The notes under the pieces: generated by a model | Seen by the model: only the letters and a program-made list of their open reading frames with translations | Databases searched by the model: none | Told to the model about the DNA's origin: nothing | Translations under genes and position numbers: made by a program | IMG/VR virus record: IMGVR_UViG_3300033146_003124 | Location: 1 to 26,496 of that record | Direction: 5' to 3' (one strand) | DNA: 26,496 nt | Origin: a virus | Shown here: positions 3,146-26,331 of the stretch, piece after piece | How positions within the stretch are numbered: the first letter of the stretch is position 1 | Layout of the letters: every line of letters starts with the position of its first letter

Positions 3146-3190
3146 CGGAAAAAATTGTAAAATGTAAATAAATAAAGTAATTTAAACAAA

Positions 3191-8226: not shown

Positions 8227-8234
8227 AATTTAAT
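8227..8234 (+). promoter_or_regulatory. Start-site motif that decides the scaffold start
   Basis: AATTTAAT, 9 nt before ATG 8244. The same element stands 8 nt before the starts of the major capsid protein and the last gene of the window. It favours ATG 8244 over the upstream GTG 8202, which has no such element. Confidence 0.5.
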
Positions 8235-8243
8235 TTTAAACCT

Positions 8244-8939
8244 ATGATTTTTTACAAAAGAAATCAAAAAACAAATTCTTTATTTAAAGAAAAACGATTT
8301 ATTTTCTTAAATGAAAAAGCAGAATCCAACGAGTCGAACTCGAAAAAAAACGAGGAAAAAGCAGAAGACAATAAAGAAAATATGATACCGCAATCAAGAT
8401 TAAATCAAGTTTTAGATAAGTCTAAAGAACTTGAAAGCAAACTCGCAGAATTTCAAGCAAAAGAAACTGAAAGGGAAGCTAAATCTAAAACAGAAGCAGA
8501 GGCAGAGGCGGTAAAAAAGGGAGAATTTGAAAAAGTATTGAAATCTAAAGATGAAGAACTGGGAATATTGAAAGCTAAGCTAGAAAAAAATCAAACTTCT
8601 TTAACTGATTATGAATCAGAAGTAGAAAAGATTTTAAAAAGCAAAATTGAGAAAATACCAAAAGAAAATAAAAGTCTCTTGGATGCTTTACCTAGTAATA
8701 TTTCAAATGTTCATCTTCTCAGATTCGTAGAAGCAAACGAAAGTAAATTAATCGGAAAAATCAATGTCGGAAATGGTGGAGGAAATCCACAAGGAGAAGA
8801 AATTGACACGAAAGAAAAAACTTTTAATACTTTGATACAAAAAAAGGAAAAAGGGGAAAAATTAAGTTTTATGGAAGAAAGGGAGCTAATGAAAACAGCT
8901 CGTGAAATAACTCTCAAGAAGAGAGAATCAAAAACATAA
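8244..8939 (+). CDS. Capsid scaffolding protein
   Basis: Scaffolding proteins fill the prohead, guide capsid assembly and then leave. The product (231 residues from ATG 8244; 245 if the in-frame GTG at 8202 is used) is highly charged and almost wholly helical. A low-complexity Glu/Asn/Lys stretch precedes IPQSRLNQVLDKSKELE, then a long coiled coil (KLAEFQAKETEREAKSK onward) and a C-terminal region with LLDALPSNISNVHLLRFVEAN, the pattern typical of scaffolds lying just before the major capsid gene. The stop is 14 bp before the capsid start. A TCGTG...CACGA mini-hairpin lies over the GTG alternative. No protease domain is seen, so scaffold removal may rely on exit or another enzyme. Confidence 0.8.
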   Translation: MIFYKRNQKTNSLFKEKRFIFLNEKAESNESNSKKNEEKAEDNKENMIPQSRLNQVLDKSKELESKLAEFQAKETEREAKSKTEAEAEAVKKGEFEKVLKSKDEELGILKAKLEKNQTSLTDYESEVEKILKSKIEKIPKENKSLLDALPSNISNVHLLRFVEANESKLIGKINVGNGGGNPQGEEIDTKEKTFNTLIQKKEKGEKLSFMEERELMKTAREITLKKRESKT

Positions 8940-8953
8940 TTTAATACAAGAAA

Positions 8954-10171
8954 ATGAGTAATTTTAATCTTAACGGATGTTATACTAACTATGATGACGC
9001 AAGTAATAAACCAGATGAGTTTATACTAGGAACAGCACAAACATTTAAACCTTTAGCATTCGAAGGCACACTTTTTAATCGTCTTTCAGGATGGGACAGA
9101 CCACTAGACAGAACAGCTTTCGAAATAGGAGGTAGAACACAATCAAGCCTTAGCGGATTATTAGGAGATGGAAGTGCAGGAGGATGGGATGCAACAGCAA
9201 CTACAGACCTACCGATACAATCAGATTATATTAATAATATAGGTATAGGAGATACACTAGAGGTAAAAAGCGGTGCAACCATAGAAGTAGTAACAGTCAA
9301 AGACATAGACAGAACAGCAGAAACAATAGATGTTTTCGCTCGTGGAGTAGGTTCAACAACAGGGGCAATTTGGGCAGACGGTTCAGCTTTTTCTGTTATT
9401 GGTACAGCTAATAATGACGGAAATGAACAAAATACAACTCAAAGAAGCGAGGCAACATATACATATACTAATTACGCTCAAACTCTAATTGAGACAGTTC
9501 AGTATTCAAAATCTAATGCAAACGAACCTCAAAAGTTTTATCAATCTCCAGAAGTTCTCGAAAGAGAAGCACTAGAGAGAATTTTTAAATTGATGATGAG
9601 AACAACTGTAAAAGGTGTAAAGGGAGCAGGAACAAAAGCAGGGCAACCATATACAACAGCAGGACTGCTAGACCAAATATCAGATAGTGCAGGTTCAACA
9701 AGGGATACACTAAGAACAAATATTGGTGGAGCTTTAACTCAAGCTAAATTAGAAGGTGGATTATCTGATGCACATAACTATGGTTCAGCTAGTACTATAA
9801 TTTGCAATCTAACTAATGCGAGAACAATCTCAGGATTTTCACCAGCGGCAACAGCAAGTTCAAGTACTCCAGTCGGATTTAGCGGTACAAATCTATATAC
9901 AAGAAATCAAGGAGATTTAGCAACTTCTTATGAATATAATGGGATGATGTTTAATCTTGCAATTGATAGAGATATGCCAACAGATAGAATATCTATTTCA
10001 GACACAGACAAAATCAAAGCTGGATTTGTAGCAGGAGATGAATTGAGATATGAAAAAGAAGGTACTAGATCATCTTCTAGGTTAGAAGTAGGAACTTATC
10101 AATGTAAATTTGCGGTAGCAGTCGAAGGAGTAGGAAGAGACCATGTAGATTTATACGGAATAACTTCTTAA
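8954..10171 (+). CDS. Major capsid protein (SU10-like, HK97 fold)
   Basis: This 405-residue protein would form the icosahedral shell. It resembles the SU10 / DUF5309 major capsid family: an early FLGTAQTFKPLAFEGTL-like region preceding FNRLSGWDRP, a YTNYAQTLIETVQYSKS segment near residues 170-190, LEREALERIFKLMMRTTVKG, and a beta-rich C-terminus ending in VEGVGRDHVDLYGI. There is an insertion-like domain (about residues 95-150) with DTLEVKSGATIEVVTV, a typical surface beta domain of the family. Codons are slightly richer in G/C than in neighbouring accessory genes, as expected for a highly expressed structural gene. AATTTAAT is exactly 8 nt before the ATG. Confidence 0.92.
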   Translation: MSNFNLNGCYTNYDDASNKPDEFILGTAQTFKPLAFEGTLFNRLSGWDRPLDRTAFEIGGRTQSSLSGLLGDGSAGGWDATATTDLPIQSDYINNIGIGDTLEVKSGATIEVVTVKDIDRTAETIDVFARGVGSTTGAIWADGSAFSVIGTANNDGNEQNTTQRSEATYTYTNYAQTLIETVQYSKSNANEPQKFYQSPEVLEREALERIFKLMMRTTVKGVKGAGTKAGQPYTTAGLLDQISDSAGSTRDTLRTNIGGALTQAKLEGGLSDAHNYGSASTIICNLTNARTISGFSPAATASSSTPVGFSGTNLYTRNQGDLATSYEYNGMMFNLAIDRDMPTDRISISDTDKIKAGFVAGDELRYEKEGTRSSSRLEVGTYQCKFAVAVEGVGRDHVDLYGITS

Positions 10172-10242
10172 TTTGATTTAATATCAGATTTAATTTAAAA
10201 TATTTTTACTTTTTTATAAAGTTTTTTTAAATTTTAGAGTTC

Positions 10243-10268
10243 GTGGCTCTCTAACTAAAAAAAGCCAC
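10243..10268 (+). promoter_or_regulatory. Stem-loop between capsid gene and next gene
   Basis: GTGGCT (10243-10248) pairs perfectly with AGCCAC (10263-10268) around a 14-nt loop. No T-run follows, so it is not a standard terminator; it could stabilise the capsid mRNA 3' end or be a processing site. The rest of the 118-bp gap is featureless AT-rich sequence. Confidence 0.35.
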
Positions 10269-10289
10269 ACATAATTTTAAATTATAAAA

Positions 10290-10553
10290 ATGTTAATTAA
10301 AGCAATAGACAATGTCTATATAGGAAATAGATATATAACTAAAAAAACAATCATTAACACAGATGAGCTAACTAAAAAAGAAAAAGCAATTTTCAATAAA
10401 AATTGTAAAATGTCTTTTGAGAAAGTAGAAGTTTCAAAAGATATTTTAGATTTAGAATTAGAAGTAGCTAAAGAGAAAGTAGAAAAGAAAGAAGTAGCTA
10501 AATCAAAGAAAATAGAGAAGTCAAAAGAAGAAGACGGAGAATCACCTTTGTAA
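10290..10553 (+). CDS. Small charged protein after the capsid gene, 87 aa
   Basis: The first 50 residues look folded (MLIKAIDNVYIGNRYITKK, then ELTKKEKAIFNKNCKMSFEKVEV), while the C-terminal third is a Lys/Glu low-complexity helix (KEKVEKKEVAKSKKIEK). Small proteins in this position between capsid and connector genes are often head accessory or head-joining proteins; the N-terminal segment, which begins with a beta strand and a Tyr-Ile pair, is compatible with that. No family confirmed. ATTTTAAA lies 8 nt before the ATG. A terminator follows 22 bp after the stop, so this gene closes the head transcription unit. Confidence 0.65.
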   Translation: MLIKAIDNVYIGNRYITKKTIINTDELTKKEKAIFNKNCKMSFEKVEVSKDILDLELEVAKEKVEKKEVAKSKKIEKSKEEDGESPL

Positions 10554-10575
10554 GATTTTTTTTTATATATTTATG

Positions 10576-10608
10576 AAAAGGCATATTGTAAAAAATATGC
10601 TTTTTTTG
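10576..10608 (+). terminator. Rho-independent terminator inside the structural module
   Basis: GCATATT (10581-10587) and AATATGC (10594-10600) form a 7-bp stem with a GTAAAA loop, followed by seven T and preceded by AAAAG. It separates head genes from the connector genes, whose first ATG is only 14 bp further on. Confidence 0.75.
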
Positions 10609-10621
10609 TTATCATAAAAAT

Positions 10622-11032
10622 ATGAGTACAACATATACAACAGCGACAACAGTAAAAGCACAAACTAGAAATACAGCATTAGCATGTGAAAGTGATGACA
10701 CAGTCGATAATCTTATATTAAGAGCAGAAAAATATATTGACGCATTCTGTGGATATTGGACTAAATACGAAGATAGCCAAGATGAAGCAGAATATCAACA
10801 AAGATTATTTCCAAGAAAACAAGATGTCTATTCAGACGGCACAGATAATACATACATACCGGAAAGAGTAAAAGAGGCAACAATATCACAAGTCGAGTTT
10901 CTTTATCAAAATTCACCTGATATAGCTTATGGGATAGAGGAAGATAATAAGACAATGATCGAGACAGTCTCACCAAGAGCTAAAGAATTACTTAGAGGAT
11001 ATAAAAGAAGAATCGGAAAAATAACATTATAA
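10622..11032 (+). CDS. Head-tail connector / adaptor protein
   Basis: This 136-residue protein matches the general form of gp6/gp15-like head completion proteins that dock under the portal. The N-terminal helices carry the usual 'D..V..LI..AE.yID.fcG' pattern, here DDTVDNLILRAEKYIDAFCG (residues 26-45), followed by a YQQRLFPRKQDVYSDG beta part and VKEATISQVEFLYQN helix. It begins 14 bp after a terminator and no clear promoter precedes it, so its transcription depends on read-through or an unrecognised promoter. The next gene starts after 1 bp. Confidence 0.8.
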   Translation: MSTTYTTATTVKAQTRNTALACESDDTVDNLILRAEKYIDAFCGYWTKYEDSQDEAEYQQRLFPRKQDVYSDGTDNTYIPERVKEATISQVEFLYQNSPDIAYGIEEDNKTMIETVSPRAKELLRGYKRRIGKITL

Positions 11033-11033
11033 A

Positions 11034-11417
11034 ATGTCTAATAAAATAATTTCCATAGAATTTGATACAAGAGAAATAGAAAAAAAATTCAAAGAATATG
11101 GAGAAAAAGCAAGTAAAATTTTAGAAAAATCATTGATATTACTAGCAGAGGGAGAGTTAAAAAATAAATCTCAATCTTTAGTTCCATTAGATGAAGGACC
11201 ATTAAAAAATTCTTATACTTCCACAAAGCCAAAAGTGAATAGTGGAAAAGATTTTGAGATTACGGTCGGATATAATAAAAAATATGCAACTAGACTACAT
11301 GAAGATATGAGTTTAAATATTAAGAGACAAGGAAGAAGCCAGAAATATTTAGAGAAACCTTTAAAAGAATTAAACTTAGGAAGAGAAATAGCAAATAATA
11401 TGAGACAAATAAGATGA
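11034..11417 (+). CDS. HK97 gp10-like head-tail joining protein
   Basis: The 127-residue product has the family's shape: an N-terminal helix (REIEKKFKEYGEKASKILEKS), then SLVPLDEGPLKNSYTS, the conserved 'P.dtG.Lr.s' region of HK97 gp10-like proteins, and a beta segment with GYNKKYATRLHEDMS that fits the 'Y...vE.G/H' signature. These proteins link the head connector to the tail. It is packed between connector and tail terminator genes, with a 4-bp overlap (ATGA) with the next one, which confirms the assignment by synteny. Confidence 0.8.
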   Translation: MSNKIISIEFDTREIEKKFKEYGEKASKILEKSLILLAEGELKNKSQSLVPLDEGPLKNSYTSTKPKVNSGKDFEITVGYNKKYATRLHEDMSLNIKRQGRSQKYLEKPLKELNLGREIANNMRQIR

Positions 11418-11815
11418 TAGAACAAGTCGCACAATTTCTTGAAAATGAGGGAATAGGAGTAGTAGGAAAAACTATTTTTAAAGCATCAGCACCAAATAGA
11501 GTAAATTGTATTGTTTTATCAGATAGTGGAGGTTTACAATCAAATCAAAATGTACCTATTGATAATCCTACAATCCAAATAATGATAAGAGCAGATATAA
11601 GCAACGGAGGATATAAAAAGGCAATGGATACAGCAAAAAGTATTTACGCTTTATTGGATAAAAAACAAAATATCACAATAGGAACTGTACACGCTTTATA
11701 TTCAAGAGCAATCCAAAGACCTTATTCATTAGGATTAAGTACGGATGACGAAATAAAAAAAGTAGTCTGGAAAGTGGTCAATAATTATCTTTTTCATATT
11801 AGAGGTACTATATAA
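11414..11815 (+). CDS. Tail terminator / minor capsid protein
   Basis: The 133-residue protein resembles the tail-terminator (minor capsid) family that caps the tail tube and joins it to the head. It has the N-terminal helix EQVAQFLENEGIGVVGKTIF, a beta strand PTIQIMIRADISNGGYKKAMD followed by TAKSIYALLDKKQN, and a final RPYSLGLSTDDEIKKVVWKVVNNYLF, similar to 'R.....sp.f.g.De.gr..w..nf.v'. It is the last gene before an island with separate promoters. Gene order (connector, gp10-like, terminator) is canonical. Confidence 0.8.
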   Translation: MIEQVAQFLENEGIGVVGKTIFKASAPNRVNCIVLSDSGGLQSNQNVPIDNPTIQIMIRADISNGGYKKAMDTAKSIYALLDKKQNITIGTVHALYSRAIQRPYSLGLSTDDEIKKVVWKVVNNYLFHIRGTI

Positions 11816-11846
11816 TCATTTTTTAATTTATCAAGATATAAATAAG

Positions 11847-11864
11847 ACTTTATTATAATAAAGT
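11847..11864 (+). repeat. Perfect 18-bp palindrome upstream of a promoter
   Basis: ACTTTATTATAATAAAGT is its own reverse complement. It lies 11 bp upstream of a TTGACA box. It could be an operator for a dimeric regulator or a weak terminator hairpin (7-bp stem, followed by TTAGATTTTT) for the upstream operon. Confidence 0.5.
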
Positions 11865-11875
11865 TAGATTTTTCA

Positions 11876-11904
11876 TTGACAATCAAAATATTAATATATA
11901 AGAT
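11876..11904 (+). promoter_or_regulatory. Sigma70-type promoter of the first accessory gene
   Basis: TTGACA (11876-11881) is followed by an overlapping TATATAAGAT; the best-spaced -10 (17 bp) is TAAGAT (11899-11904), with TATAAG at 15 bp as alternative. Expected start near 11910, just before the AATTTAAA start motif. Confidence 0.55.
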
Positions 11905-11910
11905 GTTGGT

Positions 11911-11918
11911 AATTTAAA
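11911..11918 (+). promoter_or_regulatory. AATTTAAA start-site motif
   Basis: Exact octamer 8 nt before ATG 11927. No Shine-Dalgarno is present between it and the start. Confidence 0.5.
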
Positions 11919-11926
11919 AAAAGAAT

Positions 11927-12328
11927 ATGAAAAAGGAAGGAAACATCATAAAAAAAGGTAGAGTCGTGAGCTGTGGATACAGCGAAGACGGTTTAGGGTT
12001 TGGCAGAATACTGTCAATAAGGCTTAAAAAAGCCAAAACTACAAAAGAAAAATTAAAATGTACTAAAAACATTTTAACTTTCATAAACAGCTACAAAATC
12101 GCAAAAAGATTTTGTTTAAAAACTGAAAACTATGAATATTTTATATTCTTAGAATCAGATAAGAATTGGCTAACGCTAAAACCAATTCTTAAGACTGATA
12201 ATGATAATATTGTAAAAATGTTTAGTATATTTTTACAACTATATAGGTTTAAAAATATAAGAACAGCGATGCACGAAGAAGAGCTGGGCGAGGAATATGA
12301 TGAGTTTTTTCTTCAGTTCAAAAAATAA
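11927..12328 (+). CDS. Hypothetical accessory protein, 133 aa (moron candidate)
   Basis: A basic, apparently cytoplasmic protein: NIIKKGRVVSCGYSEDGLG, a long Lys-rich middle (KKAKTTKEKLKCTKNIL), an aromatic segment NYEYFIFLESDKNWLTLK and an acidic C-terminal stretch EEELGEEYDEFFLQF. Three cysteines are scattered, without a metal-binding spacing. No family recognised. It has its own promoter and an upstream palindrome and sits between tail terminator and major tail genes, where virion genes are normally contiguous; it is therefore probably an independently transcribed cargo gene, perhaps expressed in lysogeny. Its base composition is close to that of its neighbours. Confidence 0.65.
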   Translation: MKKEGNIIKKGRVVSCGYSEDGLGFGRILSIRLKKAKTTKEKLKCTKNILTFINSYKIAKRFCLKTENYEYFIFLESDKNWLTLKPILKTDNDNIVKMFSIFLQLYRFKNIRTAMHEEELGEEYDEFFLQFKK

Positions 12329-12341
12329 TATTAATTAAATC

Positions 12342-12367
12342 TTGACCTCCGTCTATATTGTAGGCGG
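12342..12367 (+). promoter_or_regulatory. TTGACC box with overlapping stem-loop
   Basis: TTGACC (12342-12347) could be a -35 box, but the expected -10 region (GGTAAT/TAATCA) is poor. Immediately after it CCGTCTA (12349-12355) pairs with TAGGCGG (12361-12367) around a TATTG loop. A regulated promoter or a short leader hairpin is possible. Confidence 0.3.
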
Positions 12368-12374
12368 TAATCAG

Positions 12375-12382
12375 AATTTAAA
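12375..12382 (+). promoter_or_regulatory. AATTTAAA start-site motif
   Basis: Exact octamer 8 nt before ATG 12391, in a purine-rich but Shine-Dalgarno-free leader. Confidence 0.5.
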
Positions 12383-12390
12383 AAAACAAA

Positions 12391-12795
12391 ATGGAAATTG
12401 AAAAAGAAAGTTTAATAATAGATATAGACATAAACAATCCACAGATTGAAGTATTTGAGTCAGATGAAAAAGCATATGCTAAGATAGGAAGCTTAATAAT
12501 AAAGCAATATCATGAACAAGATTGTTGTGAAATTGTATATGCTGATTTTTCAGTTTTAGAATTTTACAACGAAATGTTAAAAAAATTCAATAAGATAAAT
12601 AAGATAATTATAAAACAAGTAGAGGGTTGCGGTTTTCTACTAACATTGAAAAATGATTCAAACTCAATTTCTATGCTTATTAATTGTTATGATATACAGA
12701 ATGGATATTATAGCAGTAGTCTTGATATAATAATAGAATATAAAGGCAAAAAATTTAAAACTTCTGCTAAAACTTTTTATATAGAAAATTGTTAA
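12391..12795 (+). CDS. DUF7448-like protein, 134 aa (moron candidate)
   Basis: The product has an acidic N-terminus (MEIEKESLIIDIDINNPQ), then IGSLIIKQYHEQDCCEIVYADF (H-E-Q-D-C-C-E around residues 50-56), beta-rich segments ending in CYDIQNGYYSSSLDIIIEYKG. The His-x-Gln-Asp-Cys-Cys-Glu pattern followed by a Val-Tyr and acidic residues is what I associate with the DUF7448 family, found in many phages and without an established function. The assignment is from pattern memory only. It lies in the accessory island, and its stop codon is inside an 11-bp inverted repeat. Cytoplasmic; no membrane segment. Confidence 0.65.
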   Translation: MEIEKESLIIDIDINNPQIEVFESDEKAYAKIGSLIIKQYHEQDCCEIVYADFSVLEFYNEMLKKFNKINKIIIKQVEGCGFLLTLKNDSNSISMLINCYDIQNGYYSSSLDIIIEYKGKKFKTSAKTFYIENC

Positions 12796-12819
12796 AATTT
12801 AAAAACTCTAACAATTTTC
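12784..12819 (+). repeat. 11-bp perfect inverted repeat spanning a stop codon
   Basis: GAAAATTGTTA (12784-12794) and TAACAATTTTC (12809-12819) with a 14-nt AT-rich spacer; the stop TAA overlaps the left arm. It is followed by A rather than T, so it is not a classical + strand terminator. It may protect the mRNA 3' end or be a protein-binding site. Confidence 0.6.
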
Positions 12820-12862
12820 TAAAAAAAGAGTAAAATAAAATAGACATGGTGCGTTTCACATC

Positions 12863-12898
12863 AAAAGCAATAGTAGAAACATTATTGCTTTTTTTGTT
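12863..12898 (+). terminator. Rho-independent terminator of the accessory island
   Basis: AAAAGCAATA (12863-12872) and TATTGCTTTT (12883-12892) form a 10-bp stem with a 10-nt loop, followed by more T (to 12895). Strongest terminator in the window. Confidence 0.85.
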
Positions 12899-12910
12899 TA
12901 AAATAAAACT

Positions 12911-12939
12911 TTGACAATAATTTTTAGATTATTTAATCT
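12911..12939 (+). promoter_or_regulatory. Sigma70-type promoter, apparently leaderless
   Basis: TTGACA (12911-12916) followed by TTTAAT (12932-12937, 15 bp) or TAATCT (12934-12939, 17 bp). The start of transcription should fall at or next to ATG 12947, 36 bp after the first T of the -35 box, almost the same geometry as the promoter at 982. It probably drives the tail module, since it follows a strong terminator. Confidence 0.55.
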
Positions 12940-12946
12940 ACATTTA

Positions 12947-13138
12947 ATGAAAAAGAAAGAGAAGAAGGAAAAGAAAGTAGAAAAATTTGTATTTGCGAGG
13001 GTAAAGCAAAATGCTTTTTGTAATAAAGTTAAATTTAAAGAAATTTCAATCACAAAAGAAAAAGCTGTAAAAGTCTCAAAAGATATAGAAAAAATAGAAA
13101 GATTTAAATCACTTCTTGATCTAACACAAAATAAATAA
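12947..13138 (+). CDS. Small basic hypothetical protein, 63 aa
   Basis: The frame is open from a TTG at 12911, but that codon is the first half of the -35 box, so the ATG at 12947 is the credible start. The product starts with a Lys/Glu block (MKKKEKKEKKVEKF), then FARVKQNAFCNKVKFKEISI and a helical end. No family recognised. It is the first gene after the terminator and promoter and lies 14 bp before the major tail protein, so it may be a tail accessory or a leader gene. Confidence 0.6.
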   Translation: MKKKEKKEKKVEKFVFARVKQNAFCNKVKFKEISITKEKAVKVSKDIEKIERFKSLLDLTQNK

Positions 13139-13144
13139 TTTAAA
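13137..13144 (+). promoter_or_regulatory. AATTTAAA start-site motif
   Basis: Exact octamer 8 nt before ATG 13153 of the major tail protein, overlapping the previous stop codon region. Confidence 0.5.
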
Positions 13145-13152
13145 AAATAATA

Positions 13153-13665
13153 ATGGCAATTACAACAGCAAATCTAAAACTAGGAAGAGCAACAGTGACT
13201 TATAATTCAATAGACTTAGGAGAAACAGCAGGAGATGGTGTAAGTTTGACAATAAATACAGATACACATGATACAACAATTCAAAAATTCGGTTCTAGTC
13301 CAGTTAAAAAGACTTTAATAGGACAAACTGTAAGTCTTTCAATGACTTTCGCAGAATACAGTCAAACAAATTTAGCGAAGTTCATACCTATGGCAACACT
13401 AACCACAGGGAGTACAGAAGACCAAGTAGAAGTAGGAAATGAAGCAGGAGTAGAAATGACAGCAAGTGCATTAGTACTTCATCCAGTAGAAATGGCAACG
13501 GATTTATCAGAGGATTATAATTTCCATAAAGTAATCATAACTAATATTGATGATATAGTTTTTGATGTAAATAATGATAGAACTTTGACAATAACGGCAG
13601 AATGTATCATAGATGATAGCAAAGACAATAACAACAAATTATTTACAATTGGGATTTCTGATTAA
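13153..13665 (+). CDS. Major tail (tube) protein
   Basis: This 170-residue protein is predicted to polymerise into the tail tube. It is beta-rich with the usual opening LKLGRATVTYNSIDLGETAGDGVSLTIN-like layout (an early strand, 'G.v.l.i....'), a central LIGQTVSLSMTFAEYSQTNL helix-strand junction and a Gly/Asp-rich C-terminus. Thr/Ser/Asp content and lack of long helices fit tube subunits of siphoviruses. Position between tail terminator and the G/T chaperones is decisive. The stop codon overlaps the next ATG (TAATGG). Confidence 0.82.
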   Translation: MAITTANLKLGRATVTYNSIDLGETAGDGVSLTINTDTHDTTIQKFGSSPVKKTLIGQTVSLSMTFAEYSQTNLAKFIPMATLTTGSTEDQVEVGNEAGVEMTASALVLHPVEMATDLSEDYNFHKVIITNIDDIVFDVNNDRTLTITAECIIDDSKDNNNKLFTIGISD

Positions 13666-14063
13666 TGGATAATATAGCATTAGAAAATCACATAATAGTT
13701 AAAACTAACTTTGGAGAAGTAAAAGTAAAAAAACTTGGACTTGGAGAAATTGCTATTGTTAGTTCTAAACTTGAAAAATTACCAAAGATAATAAGTGAAA
13801 TTTCCAAGCAAAAAGAAGGGGAAGTGGTAGAAAATCTTTTGTCTAATTTTAATGAAATAATAGGTGGAGCATGGAATGATGTAAAAGAAATTTTAAAAAT
13901 CTGTTTAGATATTGAAGAAGAAAAAATAGACAAAATTCATCCAGAATATATATATGAGATTTTTCAAGCTTTAATCAAAGCAAATAGTTTTTTTTTAGAC
14001 AAAATAAAAACTCTAGTAAAAGCAGGAACAGAAACACAAAAAAGCGAAGCAGAAAAGAACTAG
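13665..14063 (+). CDS. Tail assembly chaperone, short form (gpG-like)
   Basis: The 132-residue protein lies in the position of lambda gpG, the chaperone that binds the tape measure during tail assembly. It shows the typical layout: a beta start (ENHIIVKTNFGEVKVKKLGLGEIAIV), then mostly helical sequence (NEIIGGAWNDVKEILKICLDIEEE, IYEIFQALIKANSFFLDKIKT) and ends in a polar tail. A slippery T-run near codons 108-111 allows a fraction of ribosomes to produce the longer GT form. Sequence identity between chaperones of different phages is usually poor, so the call rests on order, size and the frameshift. Confidence 0.8.
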   Translation: MDNIALENHIIVKTNFGEVKVKKLGLGEIAIVSSKLEKLPKIISEISKQKEGEVVENLLSNFNEIIGGAWNDVKEILKICLDIEEEKIDKIHPEYIYEIFQALIKANSFFLDKIKTLVKAGTETQKSEAEKN

Positions 14064-14410
14064 AAAAAGAAGAGAAATATCAAAAAAATTGGCTAGGCGA
14101 AATAATCCATCGTCTAGCTTTTTATTATGGTTTTTCTAAAAAGCAAACATTGGAACTATATTATGAAGAAGCAGTTTTTTATCTTGAAAAAATCGGAGAT
14201 GAAATTCTAGAAAATCATAGAATGAGAACTTTAGAATGTGCAAATGGTGCATTAACTACAATAATGAAGGACGAAGCGAGAAAAGATTTTTTTAATAAGT
14301 TAAAAAGTCTAAAATCAATTAAAGGAGAAAGCTCAAAAGATGAGAAAATAACAAAAGAATCAATTAGAGAATTTAACAAAAATTTTCTAGCTAAAAATAA
14401 ATTTTTATAA
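13665..14410 (+). CDS. Tail assembly chaperone, frameshifted long form (gpGT-like)
   Basis: After a -1 shift at 13991-13997 the ribosome leaves the G frame and reads to a TAA at 14408-14410. The -1 frame is open from the shift site onward. The product would be 111 residues of G plus 137 of T, 248 in total. The T part has WLGEIIHRLAFYYGFS, LELYYEEAVFYLEKIGDEI and HRMRTLECANGALTTIMKDE, a compact helical domain as expected. There is no ATG near the beginning of the T frame; the TTG at 14150 would cut the domain in half, so fusion is more credible than a separate gene. The stop is 3 bp before the tape measure start. Confidence 0.78.
13988..13997 (+). promoter_or_regulatory. Programmed -1 frameshift site (T9-A)
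   Basis: Nine T followed by A. In the G frame the heptamer T TTT TTA (13991-13997) has correct X XXY YYZ phasing, and T TTT TTT (13988-13994) also fits. RNA polymerase slippage on the T-run is an alternative mechanism with the same result. Confidence 0.7.
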
Positions 14411-14413
14411 AAT

Positions 14414-16069
14414 ATGTCATTTGACGCAGGATCAGTAATCGCAAAAATCAAAGCAGATGTAAGCAATTTTGAAAAAGGAATTGCCTCAAGTCAAAAAAAA
14501 GTAAAAAGTTTTAGTAGTACACTTAAAAATATGGCGGTTGGATTAACCGCAGGAGCAACAGCTATAGCATTTGCAAGTAAGAAATTTGTAGATTTAGCTA
14601 GTGATTCAGAAGAAACACAAAATAAATTTGAAGCAGTTTTTGGTTCATTAACAAATAGTGCAGAAGATTACACAAAGAAGCTAAGCGAGGCAGTAGGGAG
14701 AAACTCAACAGATATAAAAGAAGGCTTATCGTCTTTTCAAGGATTTGCAGTTGGAATGGGATTAGCTAAAGATGAAGCTTATAAAATGGCGACAGGTTTA
14801 CAAGCTTTATCAATAGATTTTGCATCTTTCAATAATTTATCAGATGCAGAAGCACAACAAAGATTTATTTCAGCAATGAGTGGAAGTTCAGAGGTTTTAG
14901 ATAGATTTGGTATCAATATAAAAGCTAGTGCTTTAGATTTAAAATTACAAGCATTGGGATTTGATGAGACAACAGCAAGTGCAACAGAACAACAAAAAGC
15001 AATAGCTAGATTGTCAATAATCACAGAGTCAATGACTATACAAGGAGCAGTAGGAGACGCGATTAAAACTTCTGATAGTTATGCGAACAGCACTAAAAGA
15101 CTTAGATCAGATTTGAAAACACTTGGAGAAGAAATAGGACAAAAGATTATCCCATTTGCAACATCTTTAGTTAGCAAAATACTAGAATTAATAAAAGTTT
15201 TTAAAAATTTTTCTTTATTTTTAAAAGAAAATAAAATTGCAATAATAGGAATATCAACAGCAATCACAGTTGCACTAATACCTGTAATGATGTCTTTGTA
15301 TGCAACAATAATAACTTCTTTAGTTCCAGCATTTGCAACATTAACAGTCGCAGTAGCCCCTTGGTTGTTAGGTGGCGCAATGGTCGGTGGAATGGTCGCT
15401 GGTGTTCTTTGGCTTGTTGATAATTGGGAATTTGCGAAAAATAAAATAATTGAATTTTGGGAAAACATAAAAACTTGGATATCTATAAAATGGCAAGAAA
15501 TAACAACTCAGCTTATAAATGGGATAGAGATTCTAAAAATAAAATGGATTGGAGGCTGGAGCGAAATTAAAAATATATCTTCTTTTGTTCTGGAAAGTAT
15601 AAAAAACTCAGTTTTCAATTTTTGGGAAGGCATTAAAGTTATATTTAATTCTGGACTTGATTTTATATCAGAGGCTTGGGGTAATACTTGGCAAGGCATA
15701 AAAGATACAGCAGAGGGAATTTTTGACTCTTTAATTAAAAATATAAAATCAAAAATAAATTCAGTTATAAAATTAGTCAATGATATGATTAGAGCGGTAA
15801 ATTCTGTAGATATTTATGGCGTAGGTAGTGCAAATATATCAACAGTCCCACAACTCGCAGAAGGTGGAATAGCAACAAAGCCAACTCTAGCAATGATAGG
15901 AGAGGGAGGAGAAAGCGAGGCAGTTATACCATTGAGTAAATTAAATAATTATGGAGGTGGCGGAAGCAATATTTTTAATTTTAATAATCCTATTTTAATT
16001 GATGAAGATAATGCAAAAGAAATCGTAGATCAAGCATTTAATAAAATGAAGCCTAATTTATCATACTAA
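14414..16069 (+). CDS. Tape measure protein
   Basis: This 551-residue protein sets tail length and is ejected with the DNA. The N-terminus FDAGSVIAKIKADVSNFEKGIASSQKKVKS is the classical opening of the family, followed by an Ala/Ser-rich helical domain with 'F...L..A..'-type repeats, a hydrophobic section (about residues 275-340), Trp-rich repeats (WENIKTWISIKWQEI, WEGIKVIFN, WQGIKDTAEGIFD) and the C-terminal IGEGGESEAVIPLSKL motif at about 493-508. Using the common rule of about 0.15 nm per residue, the tail would be roughly 80 nm long, which is short (inference). No peptidoglycan-hydrolase domain is seen inside it. Confidence 0.92.
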   Translation: MSFDAGSVIAKIKADVSNFEKGIASSQKKVKSFSSTLKNMAVGLTAGATAIAFASKKFVDLASDSEETQNKFEAVFGSLTNSAEDYTKKLSEAVGRNSTDIKEGLSSFQGFAVGMGLAKDEAYKMATGLQALSIDFASFNNLSDAEAQQRFISAMSGSSEVLDRFGINIKASALDLKLQALGFDETTASATEQQKAIARLSIITESMTIQGAVGDAIKTSDSYANSTKRLRSDLKTLGEEIGQKIIPFATSLVSKILELIKVFKNFSLFLKENKIAIIGISTAITVALIPVMMSLYATIITSLVPAFATLTVAVAPWLLGGAMVGGMVAGVLWLVDNWEFAKNKIIEFWENIKTWISIKWQEITTQLINGIEILKIKWIGGWSEIKNISSFVLESIKNSVFNFWEGIKVIFNSGLDFISEAWGNTWQGIKDTAEGIFDSLIKNIKSKINSVIKLVNDMIRAVNSVDIYGVGSANISTVPQLAEGGIATKPTLAMIGEGGESEAVIPLSKLNNYGGGGSNIFNFNNPILIDEDNAKEIVDQAFNKMKPNLSY

Positions 16070-16070
16070 T

Positions 16071-17690: not shown

Positions 17691-17695
17691 CAACA

Positions 17696-18178: not shown

Positions 18179-18209
18179 TTTTAGAAAAAAATAAACTTAA
18201 ATTAAAAAT

Positions 18210-18572
18210 ATGAATGATAGTAAAAGATTTTCAAAAGATGACGAAGGATATAAAATACCAGTACCATCTAAATTTATGTGTGAAGATGGAGCAGACACTC
18301 CAGAAACTTCACCAGTAGATGTATCATCCTCAGAAATAGAGCTAGTAATACCAGACCAAGCCGTAGAGCTTGTTTTTTCTTATGCCTCTCAAGATGTAAG
18401 AATAGCAACGGCAACAGGAGAAACAGCAACAAAATATACTTTAATACCGTCAGGAAGTGGTGAAAAAATATTTGGAATTACAGATTTAAATTCTGTTTTT
18501 CTTTTAAGAAATGATGATACAGATAGCAAAGTGTATTTTCACTTTAATTTATTAAGCGGTACTCGAATTTAA
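18210..18572 (+). CDS. Small structural protein in the fibre cluster, 120 aa
   Basis: An acidic, beta-rich protein (SSSEIELVIPDQAVELVFSY, RIATATGETATKYTLIPSGS, KVYFHFNLLSG). Lack of helices and position between tail-tip and large fibre genes suggest a virion decoration or fibre-adaptor protein. The N-terminal 30 residues are polar and probably flexible. No defined family. AACTTAAA stands 8 nt before the ATG; no promoter or terminator nearby, so it is co-transcribed with the tail genes. Confidence 0.6.
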   Translation: MNDSKRFSKDDEGYKIPVPSKFMCEDGADTPETSPVDVSSSEIELVIPDQAVELVFSYASQDVRIATATGETATKYTLIPSGSGEKIFGITDLNSVFLLRNDDTDSKVYFHFNLLSGTRI

Positions 18573-18573
18573 A
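18566..18573 (+). promoter_or_regulatory. AATTTAAA start-site motif
   Basis: Exact octamer 8 nt before ATG 18582 of the large fibre gene; it overlaps the previous stop codon. Confidence 0.5.
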
Positions 18574-18581
18574 AAAATATA

Positions 18582-20957: not shown

Positions 20958-21394
20958 AAATAATATGGGCGGAAGATATAGAGCCAGCTTTTACAGAAGA
21001 GCAAAAAGAAATTTATCGAGAATTAAAAATGCAACAGGTTTACCCTATTGGTAATATAAATAATGGAAAAAGATTATTTCACGGCATAGGAAATAAAGAA
21101 ACCATAGACAATATACTAGAATTTATAGCATTCAAAAATCCTTTGATTGTAAAAGTAGTAAACGAAAACAATATAGAATATGGATATAATGAAATTATTA
21201 CACCAGCAGAATATGATGATCAAGGAGAAATAATTCAAGAGGAAACTAGGGAAATAATAAGAGACGAAGAACTAGAAATATATTCAAATGAAATTAATGA
21301 AAGCCTTTTTTTTGAAGAAATTGAAATAAAAAATGAAGAAGGTAATATAGAAATGAAAGTTCCTAGTAATCATAATTTTGCAGGGTGGAAATAA
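20951..21394 (+). CDS. Acidic hypothetical protein in the fibre cluster, 147 aa
   Basis: Starts inside the end of the fibre gene (7-bp overlap). The N-terminus (MLKIIWAEDIEPAFTEEQKEIYRELKMQQVYPIGN) looks folded, the C-terminal half is strongly acidic (EIIQEETREIIRDEELEIYSN, EEIEIKNEEGNIEMKVPSNH). It may be a fibre-assembly chaperone, since such genes often directly follow a fibre gene and are small and acidic, but no chaperone family is recognised. Co-translation with the fibre is likely. No membrane segment or signal peptide. Confidence 0.6.
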   Translation: MLKIIWAEDIEPAFTEEQKEIYRELKMQQVYPIGNINNGKRLFHGIGNKETIDNILEFIAFKNPLIVKVVNENNIEYGYNEIITPAEYDDQGEIIQEETREIIRDEELEIYSNEINESLFFEEIEIKNEEGNIEMKVPSNHNFAGWK

Positions 21395-21408
21395 ATTAAA
21401 AAAAATAT

Positions 21409-24168
21409 ATGAGTTCAAAAAAAATCAGCGAATTAACAGCAATATCAACACTAGAAGGAACAGACGAAATACCTATAGTAGATGATAGTGCGAACGAAAC
21501 AAAAAAACTTACCTATACTTTATTACAAAGCAATATAGCAAGTGATACAGTATCAGATACAGCATACGATGATACAACTTGGGATGGGATAACAGATAAA
21601 GCACCAAGTAAAAATGCAGTTAGAGATTATATCCACGACAGAATCACAAAAGCCCCCGAAATTTCTTTGAGTTCTGTAAATTCAGATGGTGGTTTTATTT
21701 CTAAAATTGATAATGCAACAGGAGATATTGCACGAACAACTAGCGGTTGGATAGAAGACGAAGACTATGGGATTTATTTTTACAGAAGCACAACAGCGGT
21801 TAGTGGAGAATTTGACAGCGATATAAAAAGAACTGGAGATTTTACATTAAAATTATCCACAACAGATATAACAGGAAGATGCATAGGAGCAACTAGCAAT
21901 ATATCAGCACCTACAACTCGAAAAGATTTTATAAAATTAAAAGCTAGTACAAATTATAAATTTAGAATTTGGGTAAAAACTGAAAATGTAGCAACTGATA
22001 GTGTCTATGTGGTGGTAAGAACTAGCGACTATACAAGCGGAAATTCACAATTAATAACAAGTGATAAACTAAGCGGAGATCACGATTGGGTACTTTTAGA
22101 AAAAACATTTACAACAAATGCAAGTGCAGAAGCTTGTAGTATTAGATTTTATAATGATATAGCTGGTAATATTTCTAGTGCTTGGTTTGATATAAATTCT
22201 TTAGAATTAAAAGAAGTAATAGAAGTGGAAAATACAAATGATAATGTATTTAGTGGAATAACAAGCATAAAAGGAGAAACAACAAATACAATAATTGATC
22301 AATATTATTCACAAGATGATTTAACTTTAAACTTTGGAACTACTACACTTGATGCAGTAGGACAACAATTTACACCTGAAAGTGTGAAATTATCTCAAAT
22401 AAGTGTAAATCTTAAAACAATAGGAACTCCTACAGACAATTTATTTTTAAATCTTTATGATTTATCAACTGATTTACCAGATACACTTTTATCAAGTTAT
22501 TCAATAGCAGTAGATAGCTTATCATCAACTATGGCAGAATATACCTTGCCTTTACCTTATGAATTAGATGATTTATCAAAAGTAGCATTCACACTCGAAA
22601 GAGAAGGAAGCGCAAGCGATACAAATTATTTTGCAACTTCAAATAGTGCAAGTAGTTTATATGCAAGAGGAGACCAACTAGAATATGCAAGTGCAACTTG
22701 GACAGAAAACACTAGCAATGATATTTATTTTAAAACTCATTTTGCTAAAAAAACAGAAAATCCAAAAGCAACGATAAATGGAATTACAACACAGACAACA
22801 GGAGAAATACTAAATGGAGCAACTTATGATATTGTTAACGGAAAATATACTTTTCAAGAAGATTTTGAATTTGGAACTTCTAAATGGTTTGATAATTTGT
22901 ACTCTATAGATAATGGAGGATATACAGCAAATTCAACAGATAGTTTATTAACGAATGGCTGGAAACAAAGTTCTAATAATAGTGGCAGAATAGGAGCAAA
23001 TGTAGATACAAGTGAAAGAGCTTTGACTTGGGAGATATGTGCAAAATTTCCAATATCTAACTTGAAAGTTTATGCAGGATTATTTTCACCGAAAGATAAA
23101 GGAATAACAATCCAAATTTCTAATGATAATCTAAACTGGACTGAATTTATATTAAATTCAGAGGCAACAGAAGAAAGCAAAGTAGAAACAAATTTATTTG
23201 ATGGTCAATCAAGGGTTTTTATTAAAGTAGCTAAAGATACAACAAACGCATATTTTTCAATATATAATTTTAGAGTAGAATGTGATATTGATACTCATTC
23301 AGTATCAACAGGTAAGATATATCCAACAGGAAGAGATAATGCTTTTGCTTTAGGGGTTCAATTATCAAGCAATGTAGACAGAGTTTACTACAGAAAAAAT
23401 AAATATGGAGCAAGTGCTTTTGAATTTCAAGCAACTACAGATTCAAAAGGATTTGTTTATTTACCTATTGACACAAGCCTAGATGATAGCGAGACAATAA
23501 CAATAACGAACGCACAAGGAACAGCAGACGGCACAGAATTAGAAGACGGAGATTATATTTCATTTACTTCTAGTGATATTGTTTATTTAGATTATACGAT
23601 AAATATAAGTAAGAACTTTTTAGAACTAGGAGCAGGGGGCGGTCAAGGTATATTTAGCTATGTCGGACTAACTCAAGGAATGAAATACGATGTCATAAAT
23701 CTACAAAAAGAAGTGCAAACCTTAAAAGAAAATGGGAAAAATAGGGCTTATGTTTTTGGAAGTTTGGAAAGCGAAACAGCGACCACGATCACAACAGCGG
23801 GAACTTGGTATGCAGTAGAAGGAGTTTTTAATAATTTACCTATGAAAAACTTTATTTTAGATACAGATAAAATAAAATATATAGGAGAAAAGACAGGATA
23901 TTTCATTATAAATTGGGATTCTTGCGGGAAAGTAGATACAAATGGAACTACTTTTTCAACTACAATAAAGCTAAATGATGAAGTTCAATCAGATTTTAAA
24001 ATGTGTACATTTGGAAAAACAGCAGATGAATTATTTGTTAATGGTGGGAATATGATTTTAAAACTTGAGAAAAACGATACAATTCAAATTGTAAGCACAA
24101 ATGATAATTCAGGAGATGACATAACATTTTCAAATTTTAATATCTCAATAAACTCTTTAGATTTTTAG
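21409..24168 (+). CDS. Second large tail fibre / receptor-binding protein
   Basis: The largest protein of the window (919 residues). The N-terminus (KKISELTAISTLEGTDEIPIVD, then DGITDKAPSKNAVRDYI) is a well-known tail-fibre attachment layout. Several beta-sandwich modules follow: a CBM4/9-like one (about 90-275, with NYKFRIWVKTENV and WFDINSLELKE), one with SQISVNLKTIGTPTDNLFLNLYD and PDTLLSSYSI (about 290-450), another with DRVYYRKNKYG (about 480-730), a short helical stretch (YDVINLQKEVQTLKENG, about 763-780) that may trimerise, and a C-terminal C1q/TNF-like jelly-roll (about 785-919, with TAGTWYAVEGVFNNLPM and GYFIINWDS). The end domain is the likely receptor binder. AAATTAAA is 8 nt before the ATG. 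Confidence 0.8.
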   Translation: MSSKKISELTAISTLEGTDEIPIVDDSANETKKLTYTLLQSNIASDTVSDTAYDDTTWDGITDKAPSKNAVRDYIHDRITKAPEISLSSVNSDGGFISKIDNATGDIARTTSGWIEDEDYGIYFYRSTTAVSGEFDSDIKRTGDFTLKLSTTDITGRCIGATSNISAPTTRKDFIKLKASTNYKFRIWVKTENVATDSVYVVVRTSDYTSGNSQLITSDKLSGDHDWVLLEKTFTTNASAEACSIRFYNDIAGNISSAWFDINSLELKEVIEVENTNDNVFSGITSIKGETTNTIIDQYYSQDDLTLNFGTTTLDAVGQQFTPESVKLSQISVNLKTIGTPTDNLFLNLYDLSTDLPDTLLSSYSIAVDSLSSTMAEYTLPLPYELDDLSKVAFTLEREGSASDTNYFATSNSASSLYARGDQLEYASATWTENTSNDIYFKTHFAKKTENPKATINGITTQTTGEILNGATYDIVNGKYTFQEDFEFGTSKWFDNLYSIDNGGYTANSTDSLLTNGWKQSSNNSGRIGANVDTSERALTWEICAKFPISNLKVYAGLFSPKDKGITIQISNDNLNWTEFILNSEATEESKVETNLFDGQSRVFIKVAKDTTNAYFSIYNFRVECDIDTHSVSTGKIYPTGRDNAFALGVQLSSNVDRVYYRKNKYGASAFEFQATTDSKGFVYLPIDTSLDDSETITITNAQGTADGTELEDGDYISFTSSDIVYLDYTINISKNFLELGAGGGQGIFSYVGLTQGMKYDVINLQKEVQTLKENGKNRAYVFGSLESETATTITTAGTWYAVEGVFNNLPMKNFILDTDKIKYIGEKTGYFIINWDSCGKVDTNGTTFSTTIKLNDEVQSDFKMCTFGKTADELFVNGGNMILKLEKNDTIQIVSTNDNSGDDITFSNFNISINSLDF

Positions 24169-24202
24169 AATCCTTAAAATCAATTAAATTAAATTCAAAA
24201 CA

Positions 24203-24322
24203 ATGAAAAAAGAAATAACTTTTGTAAAAATCACGAATGGAAAAGTGGAAGCCAAAGAAATAGTAAATGAGGGTTCAGAACCAACTCAAGAATTTTCAAA
24301 AACAATTAAAAAAAACATATAA
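24203..24322 (+). CDS. Small hypothetical protein before the holin, 39 aa
   Basis: MKKEITFVKITNGKVEAKEIVN and a polar remainder; no membrane segment. The start has AAATTAAA 9 nt upstream, and its stop overlaps the holin start by one base (TAATG). Its packing inside the lysis cassette supports translation. Function unknown; a lysis-timing peptide is possible by position only. Confidence 0.55.
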   Translation: MKKEITFVKITNGKVEAKEIVNEGSEPTQEFSKTIKKNI

Positions 24323-24531
24323 TGATGAATTTATTAAATCTTTTAAAACAACGAAGAGTTTGGGCAAGTATTGTTTGTGTTGTCGGTTTTTTTTTACAGC
24401 TTTTCGGCTATGGAGATATAGACCAAAACGAGTTAACAAGCCAATTATTATCAATAGGAGTTAGTTTATCTTCTCTTATTGCGGGATTTTTGGCATTATT
24501 AAGCTATGCAAAACCAAAGATTAATAAATGA
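24322..24531 (+). CDS. Holin-like membrane protein
   Basis: A 69-residue protein with two predicted membrane helices: about residues 12-30 (RVWASIVCVVGFFLQLFGYG) and 42-62 (LLSIGVSLSSLIAGFLALLSY), a short polar turn between and a basic C-terminus (AKPKINK). Size and topology fit small two-helix holins that make membrane lesions and release endolysin. It lies two genes before the amidase, the normal arrangement. The start overlaps the previous stop by one base and its stop precedes the next start by 7 bp. Confidence 0.78.
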   Translation: MMNLLNLLKQRRVWASIVCVVGFFLQLFGYGDIDQNELTSQLLSIGVSLSSLIAGFLALLSYAKPKINK

Positions 24532-24538
24532 AGAAGAA

Positions 24539-24790
24539 ATGTTAAAAGATAAAAAGATAATTATTACAATCGGAACACTAATAACTATAATAAGTCTAGT
24601 TGTAGGATTGACTATAAAAAGTACTACAATTTCCAATAATGTAAATCGAAATCAAATAGATATTATGGAGGTGAAAATAAAATTAGAAGCAGAGGAAAAA
24701 CAAAATGAAATTATAAAAATTTCACTTGCGAAAATTGAAACACAACTTGCAAGTATTCAAACAATGTTAAAAGGACACAATGGAAACTAA
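24539..24790 (+). CDS. Membrane-anchored coiled-coil protein of the lysis cassette
   Basis: From ATG 24539 the 83-residue protein has one membrane helix (residues about 5-25: KKIIITIGTLITIISLVVGL) followed by a heptad-like coiled coil (NRNQIDIMEVKIKLEAEEKQ and beyond to KIETQLASIQTMLKG). The layout is that of XhlA-like or Rz/spanin-like lysis partners. An in-frame ATG at 24506 would overlap the holin by 26 bp; 24539 is preferred because it is preceded by purine-rich GAAGAAG and lies just after the holin stop. It overlaps the amidase by 11 bp. Confidence 0.72.
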   Translation: MLKDKKIIITIGTLITIISLVVGLTIKSTTISNNVNRNQIDIMEVKIKLEAEEKQNEIIKISLAKIETQLASIQTMLKGHNGN

Positions 24791-25340
24791 AAAATTAATA
24801 ATACACCATACCGCAGTAAGTAGAGATAAAAATAATAATCAATTTGATGCGGTAAATAATTATCATAAAGGGCTTTGGAACTTCAAAAGTAAATTAGGGT
24901 ATTATATTGGATATCACTATTTCATAGAGCCTCAAGGAGAGTTAAAACAAGCCAGAGAAGAAAGAGAAAGAGGAGCTCACACAGTCGGACAAAATAAAGA
25001 AATAGGAGTTTGCTTAACTGGTAATTTTGACATAGAAAAACCAACTGAAAAGCAAATTCAAAGTTTAAAAAATCTAGTCAAGGAGCTAAAAACTAGATAT
25101 GACTTAGAAATTTATTTTCATCGAGATTTTGCAAATTATAAGAGTTGTCCAGGTAGAAACTTTTCAGATGAATATATCAAGGAAATTTCAGAAAATGAAC
25201 TTGAAAATATACCGAAATGGGCAAAATTATCTTGCGAAAAAGCAAAGAAAAAGGGAATAATCACAAAGAATTTTAATGAGAATATAACAGCATATAGACT
25301 CGCAACTATATTTAATAATTTAGGATTATTAGATGAATGA
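24780..25340 (+). CDS. Endolysin: N-acetylmuramoyl-L-alanine amidase (T7 lysozyme-like) with an SLH-like end
   Basis: The enzyme cuts the bond between muramic acid and the peptide stem. The 186-residue protein begins LIIHHTAVSR with the first zinc ligand (H9 or H10), then YIGYHYFIEPQG, GAHTVGQN (H67) and YFHRDFANYKSCPGRNF with H114, K121 and C123, corresponding to the zinc and catalytic residues of T7-type amidases, so the active site looks complete. Residues about 144-186 (IPKWAKLSCEKAKKKGIIT to AYRLATIFNNLGLLDE) resemble one S-layer-homology repeat, a cell-wall anchor. A single repeat is short for the family. The gene overlaps both neighbours by 8-11 bp. Confidence 0.93.
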   Translation: METKKLIIHHTAVSRDKNNNQFDAVNNYHKGLWNFKSKLGYYIGYHYFIEPQGELKQAREERERGAHTVGQNKEIGVCLTGNFDIEKPTEKQIQSLKNLVKELKTRYDLEIYFHRDFANYKSCPGRNFSDEYIKEISENELENIPKWAKLSCEKAKKKGIITKNFNENITAYRLATIFNNLGLLDE

Positions 25341-26070
25341 TTTAAAAGATGATTATGTAGCAGGTGGAAATTTACCAGCGGTGGAAGTGAATGAGATCAC
25401 AACGAAAGTAAATAACCAATATCACGGTAAAAGCTTAGTCGGAATATCAACAGCAATAAATAATTTTTATACAGATAATTTTCTAAAATCAATTCTAATA
25501 AGTAGTACTACATTTACTATTTTTGATGCAGAAAATAAAATATGGGCGTCAAGAAATGTAACTAATGAAAAACCAACAGCAAGTTTAATAAATAATTTTA
25601 TTATCAATGGTAGTTATATCTATGTATTAATTGATAGCACGGAGCTTTGGCGATATGAAATCGCAGACTTGACAAATAATGTACAAATGACAGGCATTAC
25701 ATTTAATTCAAGTTCTAATATAAGTTTTGATGGAACTGATTTTTTTACATACAACAACACAGGAACATTTAACGAAATTCAACAAGTATCATTTTCTGGA
25801 ACAACTCTAACTTTAGATGATACAATCACACTAGCAACAGCAGATACAAATGATTTAGACTTACAAGACATATCAATAGACGAGGATTATATTTACACAA
25901 AAGCTAATAGCACAAATGGATTTTTATTTAAAAAATGGGATAAATCAAGCGGTGCTTTAATAAAAACAGGATTGGGAAATGTAAACCTTAGACTTTGGAA
26001 TATAGAAAATGAAGTTTATTTTCATTATGCAGTATCAGGACAATATTTTTTATACAAAGTACCTATCTAA
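25333..26070 (+). CDS. Adhesin-like / tail-fibre-type protein after the endolysin
   Basis: The 245-residue protein starts DLKDDYVAGGNLPAVEVNEI, a layout typical of the first residues of phage structural or fibre proteins ('d.y..G..l.a.dvN.i...vn'), then a beta-rich body with short repeats of strand-loop-strand containing Ser/Thr/Asn runs (SYIYVLIDSTELWRYEIADL, FDGTDFFTYNNTG, DLQDISIDEDYIYTKA, SGQYFLYKVP). This could form a small beta-propeller. It begins in overlap with the endolysin, with AATTTAGG 8 nt before its ATG. A structural gene placed after the lysis genes is unusual. Role unknown; an additional receptor-binding or decoration protein is the best guess. Confidence 0.65.
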   Translation: MNDLKDDYVAGGNLPAVEVNEITTKVNNQYHGKSLVGISTAINNFYTDNFLKSILISSTTFTIFDAENKIWASRNVTNEKPTASLINNFIINGSYIYVLIDSTELWRYEIADLTNNVQMTGITFNSSSNISFDGTDFFTYNNTGTFNEIQQVSFSGTTLTLDDTITLATADTNDLDLQDISIDEDYIYTKANSTNGFLFKKWDKSSGALIKTGLGNVNLRLWNIENEVYFHYAVSGQYFLYKVPI

Positions 26071-26331
26071 ACAAAAAATCAAGCTTTCAGAAAATCAGAG
26101 TTTGTTTTTCGTGATTTAATCTAAATTTAATATATCCACACAATCAGAGAATGATTTAAAAAACAAAAAAGCATAATCATACTAGCAGAGACTAAAAACT
26201 CTTAAAATTGATTTAAATAGCTTATTTTTAATATAAATATTATTAAATAAGATTTATTAATTTATGTAAACTATATTTAATTTATTTTTTCTTAATTTTC
26301 AAATAAAATAGACTTAATTTAATGAAGATTT
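26071..26331 (+). other. Gene-free AT-rich spacer after the late genes
   Basis: A 261-bp stretch without a credible gene. It contains two copies of AATCAGAG (26093-26100 and 26142-26149), an AT-only hairpin with arms CTTATTT (26221-26227) and AAATAAG (26245-26251), and the element AATTTAAT (26316-26323) 8 nt before the next gene. No clear TTGACA promoter or strong terminator is seen. An attachment site or early-region boundary may lie here, but no core can be identified. Confidence 0.5.

Follow-up and report, generated by a model that had tools for sequence, protein, structure and literature searches.

The stretch of DNA analysed here, referred to as the window, is the entire IMG/VR virus record IMGVR_UViG_3300033146_003124, 26,496 nucleotides (nt) long and classed as linear; it is the genome of a tailed phage, with a GC content of 29% and the main genes all on the plus strand. 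Many of these genes begin at a fixed distance from the octamer AATTTAAA or a variant of it, and the invariant core of this element is not the whole octamer but the trinucleotide T-13 T-12 A-11 (hereinafter, the TTA element; positions are counted back from the start codon). The octamer had been picked out in an earlier note on the same DNA: the four exact copies reported there, at 11911, 12375, 13137 and 18566, are all in place with the 8-nt spacing, each of the nine variants listed lies at the start minus 16 and, as claimed, some copies lie inside the preceding gene, those at 16055 and 25317 being examples. The copies, together with further TTA-bearing starts, are the following.

11911..11918, plus strand: exact AATTTAAA, 8 nt before ATG 11927
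12375..12382, plus strand: exact AATTTAAA, 8 nt before ATG 12391
13137..13144, plus strand: exact AATTTAAA, 8 nt before ATG 13153 (Ig-domain/tail protein); overlaps the stop codon of the preceding open reading frame (ORF)
18566..18573, plus strand: exact AATTTAAA, 8 nt before ATG 18582 (tail protein); the preceding gene has its stop codon within the octamer
8938..8945, plus strand: variant AATTTAAT, 8 nt before ATG 8954 (ORF of 405 amino acids, aa)
26316..26323, plus strand: variant AATTTAAT, 8 nt before ATG 26332
16055..16062, plus strand: variant AATTTATC, 8 nt before ATG 16071; within the last part of the preceding gene; TATCAT at -12 as well
25317..25324, plus strand: variant AATTTAGG, 8 nt before ATG 25333; within the preceding amidase gene
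21393..21400, plus strand: variant AAATTAAA, 8 nt before ATG 21409
18194..18201, plus strand: variant AACTTAAA, 8 nt before ATG 18210
10274..10281, plus strand: variant ATTTTAAA, 8 nt before ATG 10290
6222..6229, plus strand: variant AGATTAAA, 8 nt before ATG 6238
24764..24771, plus strand: variant ATGTTAAA, 8 nt before ATG 24780 (amidase); within the preceding gene
5972..5979, plus strand: TTA at -13 (TTTA at -14) before ATG 5988 (PQ-loop protein), an ATGA-overlap start
3179..3186, plus strand: exact AATTTAAA off register, just 4 nt before ATG 3191 (portal gene)
10606..10615, plus strand: TTA at -13, doubling as an extended -10 box, TGTTATCAT, with TTGTAA upstream, before ATG 10622

Just upstream of the octamer at 11911 lies a TTGACA-17-TAAGAT promoter (11876-11904) with a predicted transcription start at about 11911, so that the octamer would lie inside the transcript, at the 5′ end of the mRNA of gene 11927.

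The positional enrichment supposed in the earlier note withstood comparison with both shuffled sequence and internal ATGs. The arrangement AATTTAAA-N8-ATG occurs 4 times in the window, against an average of 0.36 in dinucleotide shuffles, none of which exceeded 2, and octamer similarity over the starts forms a sharp peak at offset -16 (z = 8.5 versus internal ATGs), where 9 of 35 starts match at least 7 of the 8 positions, compared with 0.4% of internal ATGs. A leave-one-out weight matrix yields z = 8.0 (Mann-Whitney p = 1.4e-9). Information content is 0.56 bits at T-13, 0.48 at A-11 and 0.40 at T-12, with A-16 and A-15 being weaker. TTA stands at -13 in 15 of the 35 curated starts, compared with 2.3% of 481 internal ATGs; this result (p = 5e-16) far surpasses any other among ~1,400 trinucleotide-by-offset tests, and the best p in 200 random internal-ATG sets was 1.2e-6. 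The TTA offset profile of the window likewise gives 47% at -13 versus 2.0% of internal ATGs. The enrichment and the register described in the earlier note are real, but the core is TTA, and it is found at ~43% of the starts, not at all of them.

Given that the genome is only 29% GC and that its starts are A-rich throughout, such a motif could in principle be a by-product of AT-rich composition, devoid of function. However, the signal is not reproduced by shuffles, internal ATGs, leave-one-out scoring or random ATG sets, and in similarly AT-rich IMG/VR contigs TTA at -13 is at the background level (4% of 607 starts), with no locus as strong as the window. These controls refute a composition artefact, the probability of which we consider negligible. 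In a separate scan of viral contigs with AATTTAAAAAA-N5-ATG, the matches were by chance, none being enriched like the window.

As the earlier note had remarked, hardly any start has a GGAGG-like site: a GGAG-like sequence is found at just 2 of 34 starts, that is, the Shine-Dalgarno (SD) sequence is essentially absent. Starts tightly coupled to the preceding gene mostly lack the TTA element (e.g., 4601, 6690, 11414 and 13665), the start at 5988 being an exception. An alternative genetic code was considered and rejected, TGA being the ordinary stop codon in 8 of 34 genes.

The same element, in the same register, is found in bacterial genomes of the Patescibacteria type. The entry point was a Patescibacteria-like metagenome-assembled genome (L016, genome G001) reached via the ParB gene, after which the phylum was sampled and ~60 stretches of Patescibacteria-type genomes were read for start contexts. 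Exact octamer counts over 380 genomes of the phylum were uninformative because the octamer is too AT-dependent, so that a test of the TTA register was needed. In genome G235, octamer similarity peaks at the same offset as in the window, -16 (z = 14.0, 371 genes), and TTA at -13 precedes 20% of starts versus 1.6%. The order of G235 comprises ten genomes and, when these are pooled, TTA at -13 is found at 20% of 581 starts versus 1.8% of internal ATGs; the values are 15-24% in G287, G379, G401, G402 and G403, and 7% versus 0.6% in the GC-rich member G370, and too few starts were available in G404, G405 and G406 to judge. Outside this order, the class shows 0-4% per genome, with the exception of small samples of G147 and G269, and 3% overall.

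The 16S rRNA tails of G235 and G287 end in ...CCTCCTTT / GGATCACCTCCTTT, with the anti-SD intact, and SD use is 0-8% in well-sampled members of the order. No complement to AATTTAAA was found in these two tails. Thus, a hidden SD in the 16S complement, which the earlier note had named as a possible undoing of its proposal, is not the explanation in two genomes of the matching order that keep a normal 16S tail, the phage's own host not having been identified. S1-domain proteins are encoded in 16 of 16 genomes compared, including a four-S1-domain protein of ~400 aa in both G235 and G287, and bS21 was found in just some members of the order. The Candidate Phyla Radiation is characterised by the absence of ribosomal protein uL30, which is missing in 15 of 15 genomes checked here and present in 13 of 14 control genomes.

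An A/T-rich motif at this distance could alternatively be a -10-like promoter box (T-12 A-11...T-7, preceded by T-13) adjacent to each gene and giving rise to leaderless mRNAs, as in Deinococcus. Indeed, TAnnnT at -12 precedes 8 of 34 window starts versus 2% of internal ATGs, similarity to TATAAT peaks at -12 (z 6.8), and starts 1019, 12947 and 20951 have a perfect TTGACA hexamer at -37, -36 and -35, respectively, where ~0.14 such boxes would be expected. Such an architecture is also seen in the Patescibacteria-type genomes G138 and G188, in which T-7 tends to accompany TA at -12 (odds ratio (OR) 3.5, p = 3e-5, and OR 2.6, p = 0.006, respectively). However, in the four exact copies of the octamer positions -12..-7 are TAAAAA, so that the T-7 required of a -10 box is missing, and the most informative position, T-13, is outside the -10 consensus. 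In the order of G235, T-7 is no more frequent among TTA carriers (37%) than among other starts (38%; OR 0.97), nor is it significantly so in the window, and TA at -12/-11 is not significantly coupled to T-7 (OR 1.22, p 0.16). TTA carriers are also no richer in -35 boxes at -38..-32 than control intervals. Furthermore, the element shows no preference for operon heads over positions inside operons or inside upstream genes: in the window, TTA precedes 9 of the 20 starts within operons and 2 of the 7 at operon heads, and the corresponding values in G235 are 18% and 21%. In the G138 control, TAnnnT at -12 drops from 26-39% (heads and mid-distance starts; heads 26%) to 8% inside operons, so that this genome is the opposite of the TTA element in both the operon-position and the T-7 tests. 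Overall, we regard the leaderless explanation of the TTA element as unlikely.

None of the three starts with a perfect TTGACA carries TTA at -13; the TTA element is therefore a signal of its own, and a minority of window starts probably have leaderless mRNAs. Two of the three lie in intergenic DNA and lack the TTA element, each being a probable leaderless promoter.

982..1019, plus strand: TTGACA-18-TAATTT-N7-ATG, with the 46-aa ORF at 1019
12911..12947, plus strand: TTGACA-17-TAATCT-N7-ATG, with the gene at 12947

Because these promoters are so close to ATGs 1019 and 12947, the mRNAs there would be leaderless, and the extended -10 box TGTTATCAT at start 10622 is best read in the same way. The proposal of -10 elements and leaderless mRNAs is thus disfavoured for the TTA-bearing starts and probably right for a few starts (1019, 12947 and 10622).

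With regard to G138, its 16S 3′ tail (L332) reads ...GGAATAATTCAATTTG, without CCTCC, and extended -10 boxes (TGnTAnnnT) lie at leaderless distance in this genome, where 20% of starts have TAnnnT at -12; G138 thus appears to combine a lost anti-SD with leaderless genes.

In Flavobacterium johnsoniae, A is enriched at -14..-11 and at -3/-6 and there is no SD, despite the kept anti-SD (PMC6847099). The phage might have a Bacteroidota host, and its element might be no more than the usual A-rich initiation region of that group, displaced by chance. Five Bacteroidota phages (of Nonlabens, Flavobacterium, Cellulophaga, Riemerella and Bacteroides, the last being crAss001) likewise lack SD and display a T-to-A step upstream of their starts, at -15/-13, with an octamer peak at -18/-19 (z = 12). 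However, the register is 2-3 nt off, and TTA at -13 is at the background level in these five phages (3%). The A frequency in the window is 32, 21 and 26% at -14, -13 and -12, and 82% at -11, so that, -11 excepted, the A enrichment across -14..-11 is not found there. The Bacteroidota -7 promoter box TANNTTTG is at chance level in the window (47 found, 48 expected), while canonical TTGACA promoters, unlike those of Bacteroidota, occupy its few intergenic stretches (807-835, 982-1019, 11876-11904 and 12911-12947). We therefore consider this possibility quite improbable. The A/U-rich ribosome signal of the Flavobacterium type envisaged in the earlier note is supported in kind, but its register is shifted by 2-3 nt and the best genomic match is of the Patescibacteria type, not Bacteroidota. 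In the Bacteroidota phages L212, L213, L215, L216 and L217, T at about -15/-16 is followed by A at -13..-11, and the Bacteroidota A-rich element therefore has a T-rich upstream half.

We propose, as the probable interpretation, that the TTA element is a fixed-register, A/U-rich, non-SD translation-initiation signal in mRNA, shared with the order of G235. Under this interpretation, U-13 U-12 A-11, preferably in the context AAUUUAAA and followed by A-rich sequence, would replace the SD upstream of AUG, mainly at starts that are not tightly coupled to the preceding stop codon. Such an mRNA element would assist the 30S subunit in positioning the AUG in the absence of SD pairing, and its reader would be the 30S platform, e.g., bS1 or a platform pocket, and not 16S pairing. 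A broader and more tentative proposition, to which we give somewhat less than an even chance, is that an order of Patescibacteria and its phage choose their starts by U-13 U-12 A-11, read by the 30S subunit without the use of the intact anti-SD, as a lineage-specific code distinct from the SD, leaderless and Bacteroidota types.

Relatives of the order of G235 probably include the host of this phage, which would infect that group, the shared TTA element being the sole ground for the assignment. A Pelagibacter-type host was rejected because the Pelagibacter phage examined uses SD. Several observations weigh against the proposed signal or its assignment to this order. Codon usage singles out no host, its match to the order being unspecific, and the phage terminase and portal were not found in genomes of the order or class of G235. 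Start calling in the bacterial genomes relied on a simple longest-ORF rule. It is not proven that the order alone has the trait, because G009, which lies outside it, shows TTA at -13 in 16% of starts (n = 62). The T-7 comparison in the window (7/14 versus 8/20, OR 1.5, p = 0.41) comes from an underpowered sample, and -35-like boxes at -37..-32 are mildly over-represented there (18 of 34 starts versus 31% of internal ATGs, p = 0.007), so that some window starts are promoter-driven.

Among known systems, the Bacteroidota A-rich, Kozak-like region is similar in that the SD is absent and the anti-SD kept, A/U-rich sequence lies at a defined distance, and phages follow their hosts; the TTA element is best read as a variant of it. 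The differences are that the window has a discrete TTA trinucleotide, 2-3 nt nearer to the AUG than the T at -15/-16 of Bacteroidota phages, and that the genomes matching the window are of the Patescibacteria type. In F. johnsoniae, bS1 is thought to meet the mRNA in the region where the TTA element lies (PMC6847099), and another report describes bS21 as hiding the anti-SD in Bacteroidota (PMC9976891). The leaderless genes of Deinococcus-Thermus, with a -10 motif (TANNNT) adjacent to the ORF (PMC12340547), share the AT-rich motif, the preferred distance and the lack of SD, and a few window starts fit this type; by contrast, most copies in the window have no T-7 and no -35 coupling and are equally frequent inside operons. 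U-rich regions of non-SD genes have been proposed as S1 (RPS1) binding sites (PMC5397173). They resemble the TTA element in the U/A-rich stretch at about -20 to -10, and every genome compared here has S1-domain proteins, but the proposed sites are broad nucleotide biases, whereas here a three-letter core stands in one register. Some candidate-phylum genomes have been listed as SD-scarce, with the replacement not named (PMC10783764). A limited literature search found no description of a discrete TTA in a single register.

How starts are chosen without SD pairing is an open question, on which Patescibacteria have barely been studied. A discrete three-letter signal common to an order and a phage is a concrete target for mutational and structural work. 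With the TTA element taken into account, start calling in these genomes would improve, and the element could act as a host marker for their phages.

The other genes of the window conform to a tailed phage.

1631-3145, plus strand: large terminase
3191-4600, plus strand: SPP1-type portal
4601-5101, plus strand: ParB-like protein
5104-5991, plus strand: D12 methyltransferase
5988-6233, plus strand: PQ-loop protein (SemiSWEET-like membrane protein)
7174-8157, plus strand: minor head protein
ATG 8954, plus strand: 405-aa ORF in the capsid-gene position, with no family match
In the window, plus strand: head-tail connector and terminator genes
14414-16069, plus strand: tape measure
ATG 13153 and ATG 18582, plus strand: tail proteins, including the Ig-domain/tail protein gene and the tail protein gene, respectively
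24780-25340, plus strand: amidase

No close relatives were found among viral contigs by the terminase, the portal, the 405-aa capsid-position protein or the minor head protein. Relatives of the ParB and D12 methyltransferase genes exist and were rejected as a lead, since the module also occurs in SD-using phages, without the TTA element; the ParB-methyltransferase neighbourhood recurs in the unrelated phages L358 and L359. The PQ-loop gene sits within the head gene block and has a 4-nt overlap with the methyltransferase gene, which itself holds a short LERLERLERLEQLEQL repeat. Two short ORFs are missing from the ORF list, 638-784 (48 codons), which has an ATGA overlap with the gene ending at 641, and 1019-1159 (46 codons). 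Other start contexts were noticed in passing: in the SD-poor phages L358, L373, L376 and L390, which have a related D12 methyltransferase, T occupies position -1 before 77-90% of starts, and in the 168-kb IMG/VR contig L183 many starts have the repeated context AAAGGTT-ATG, with zero spacer.

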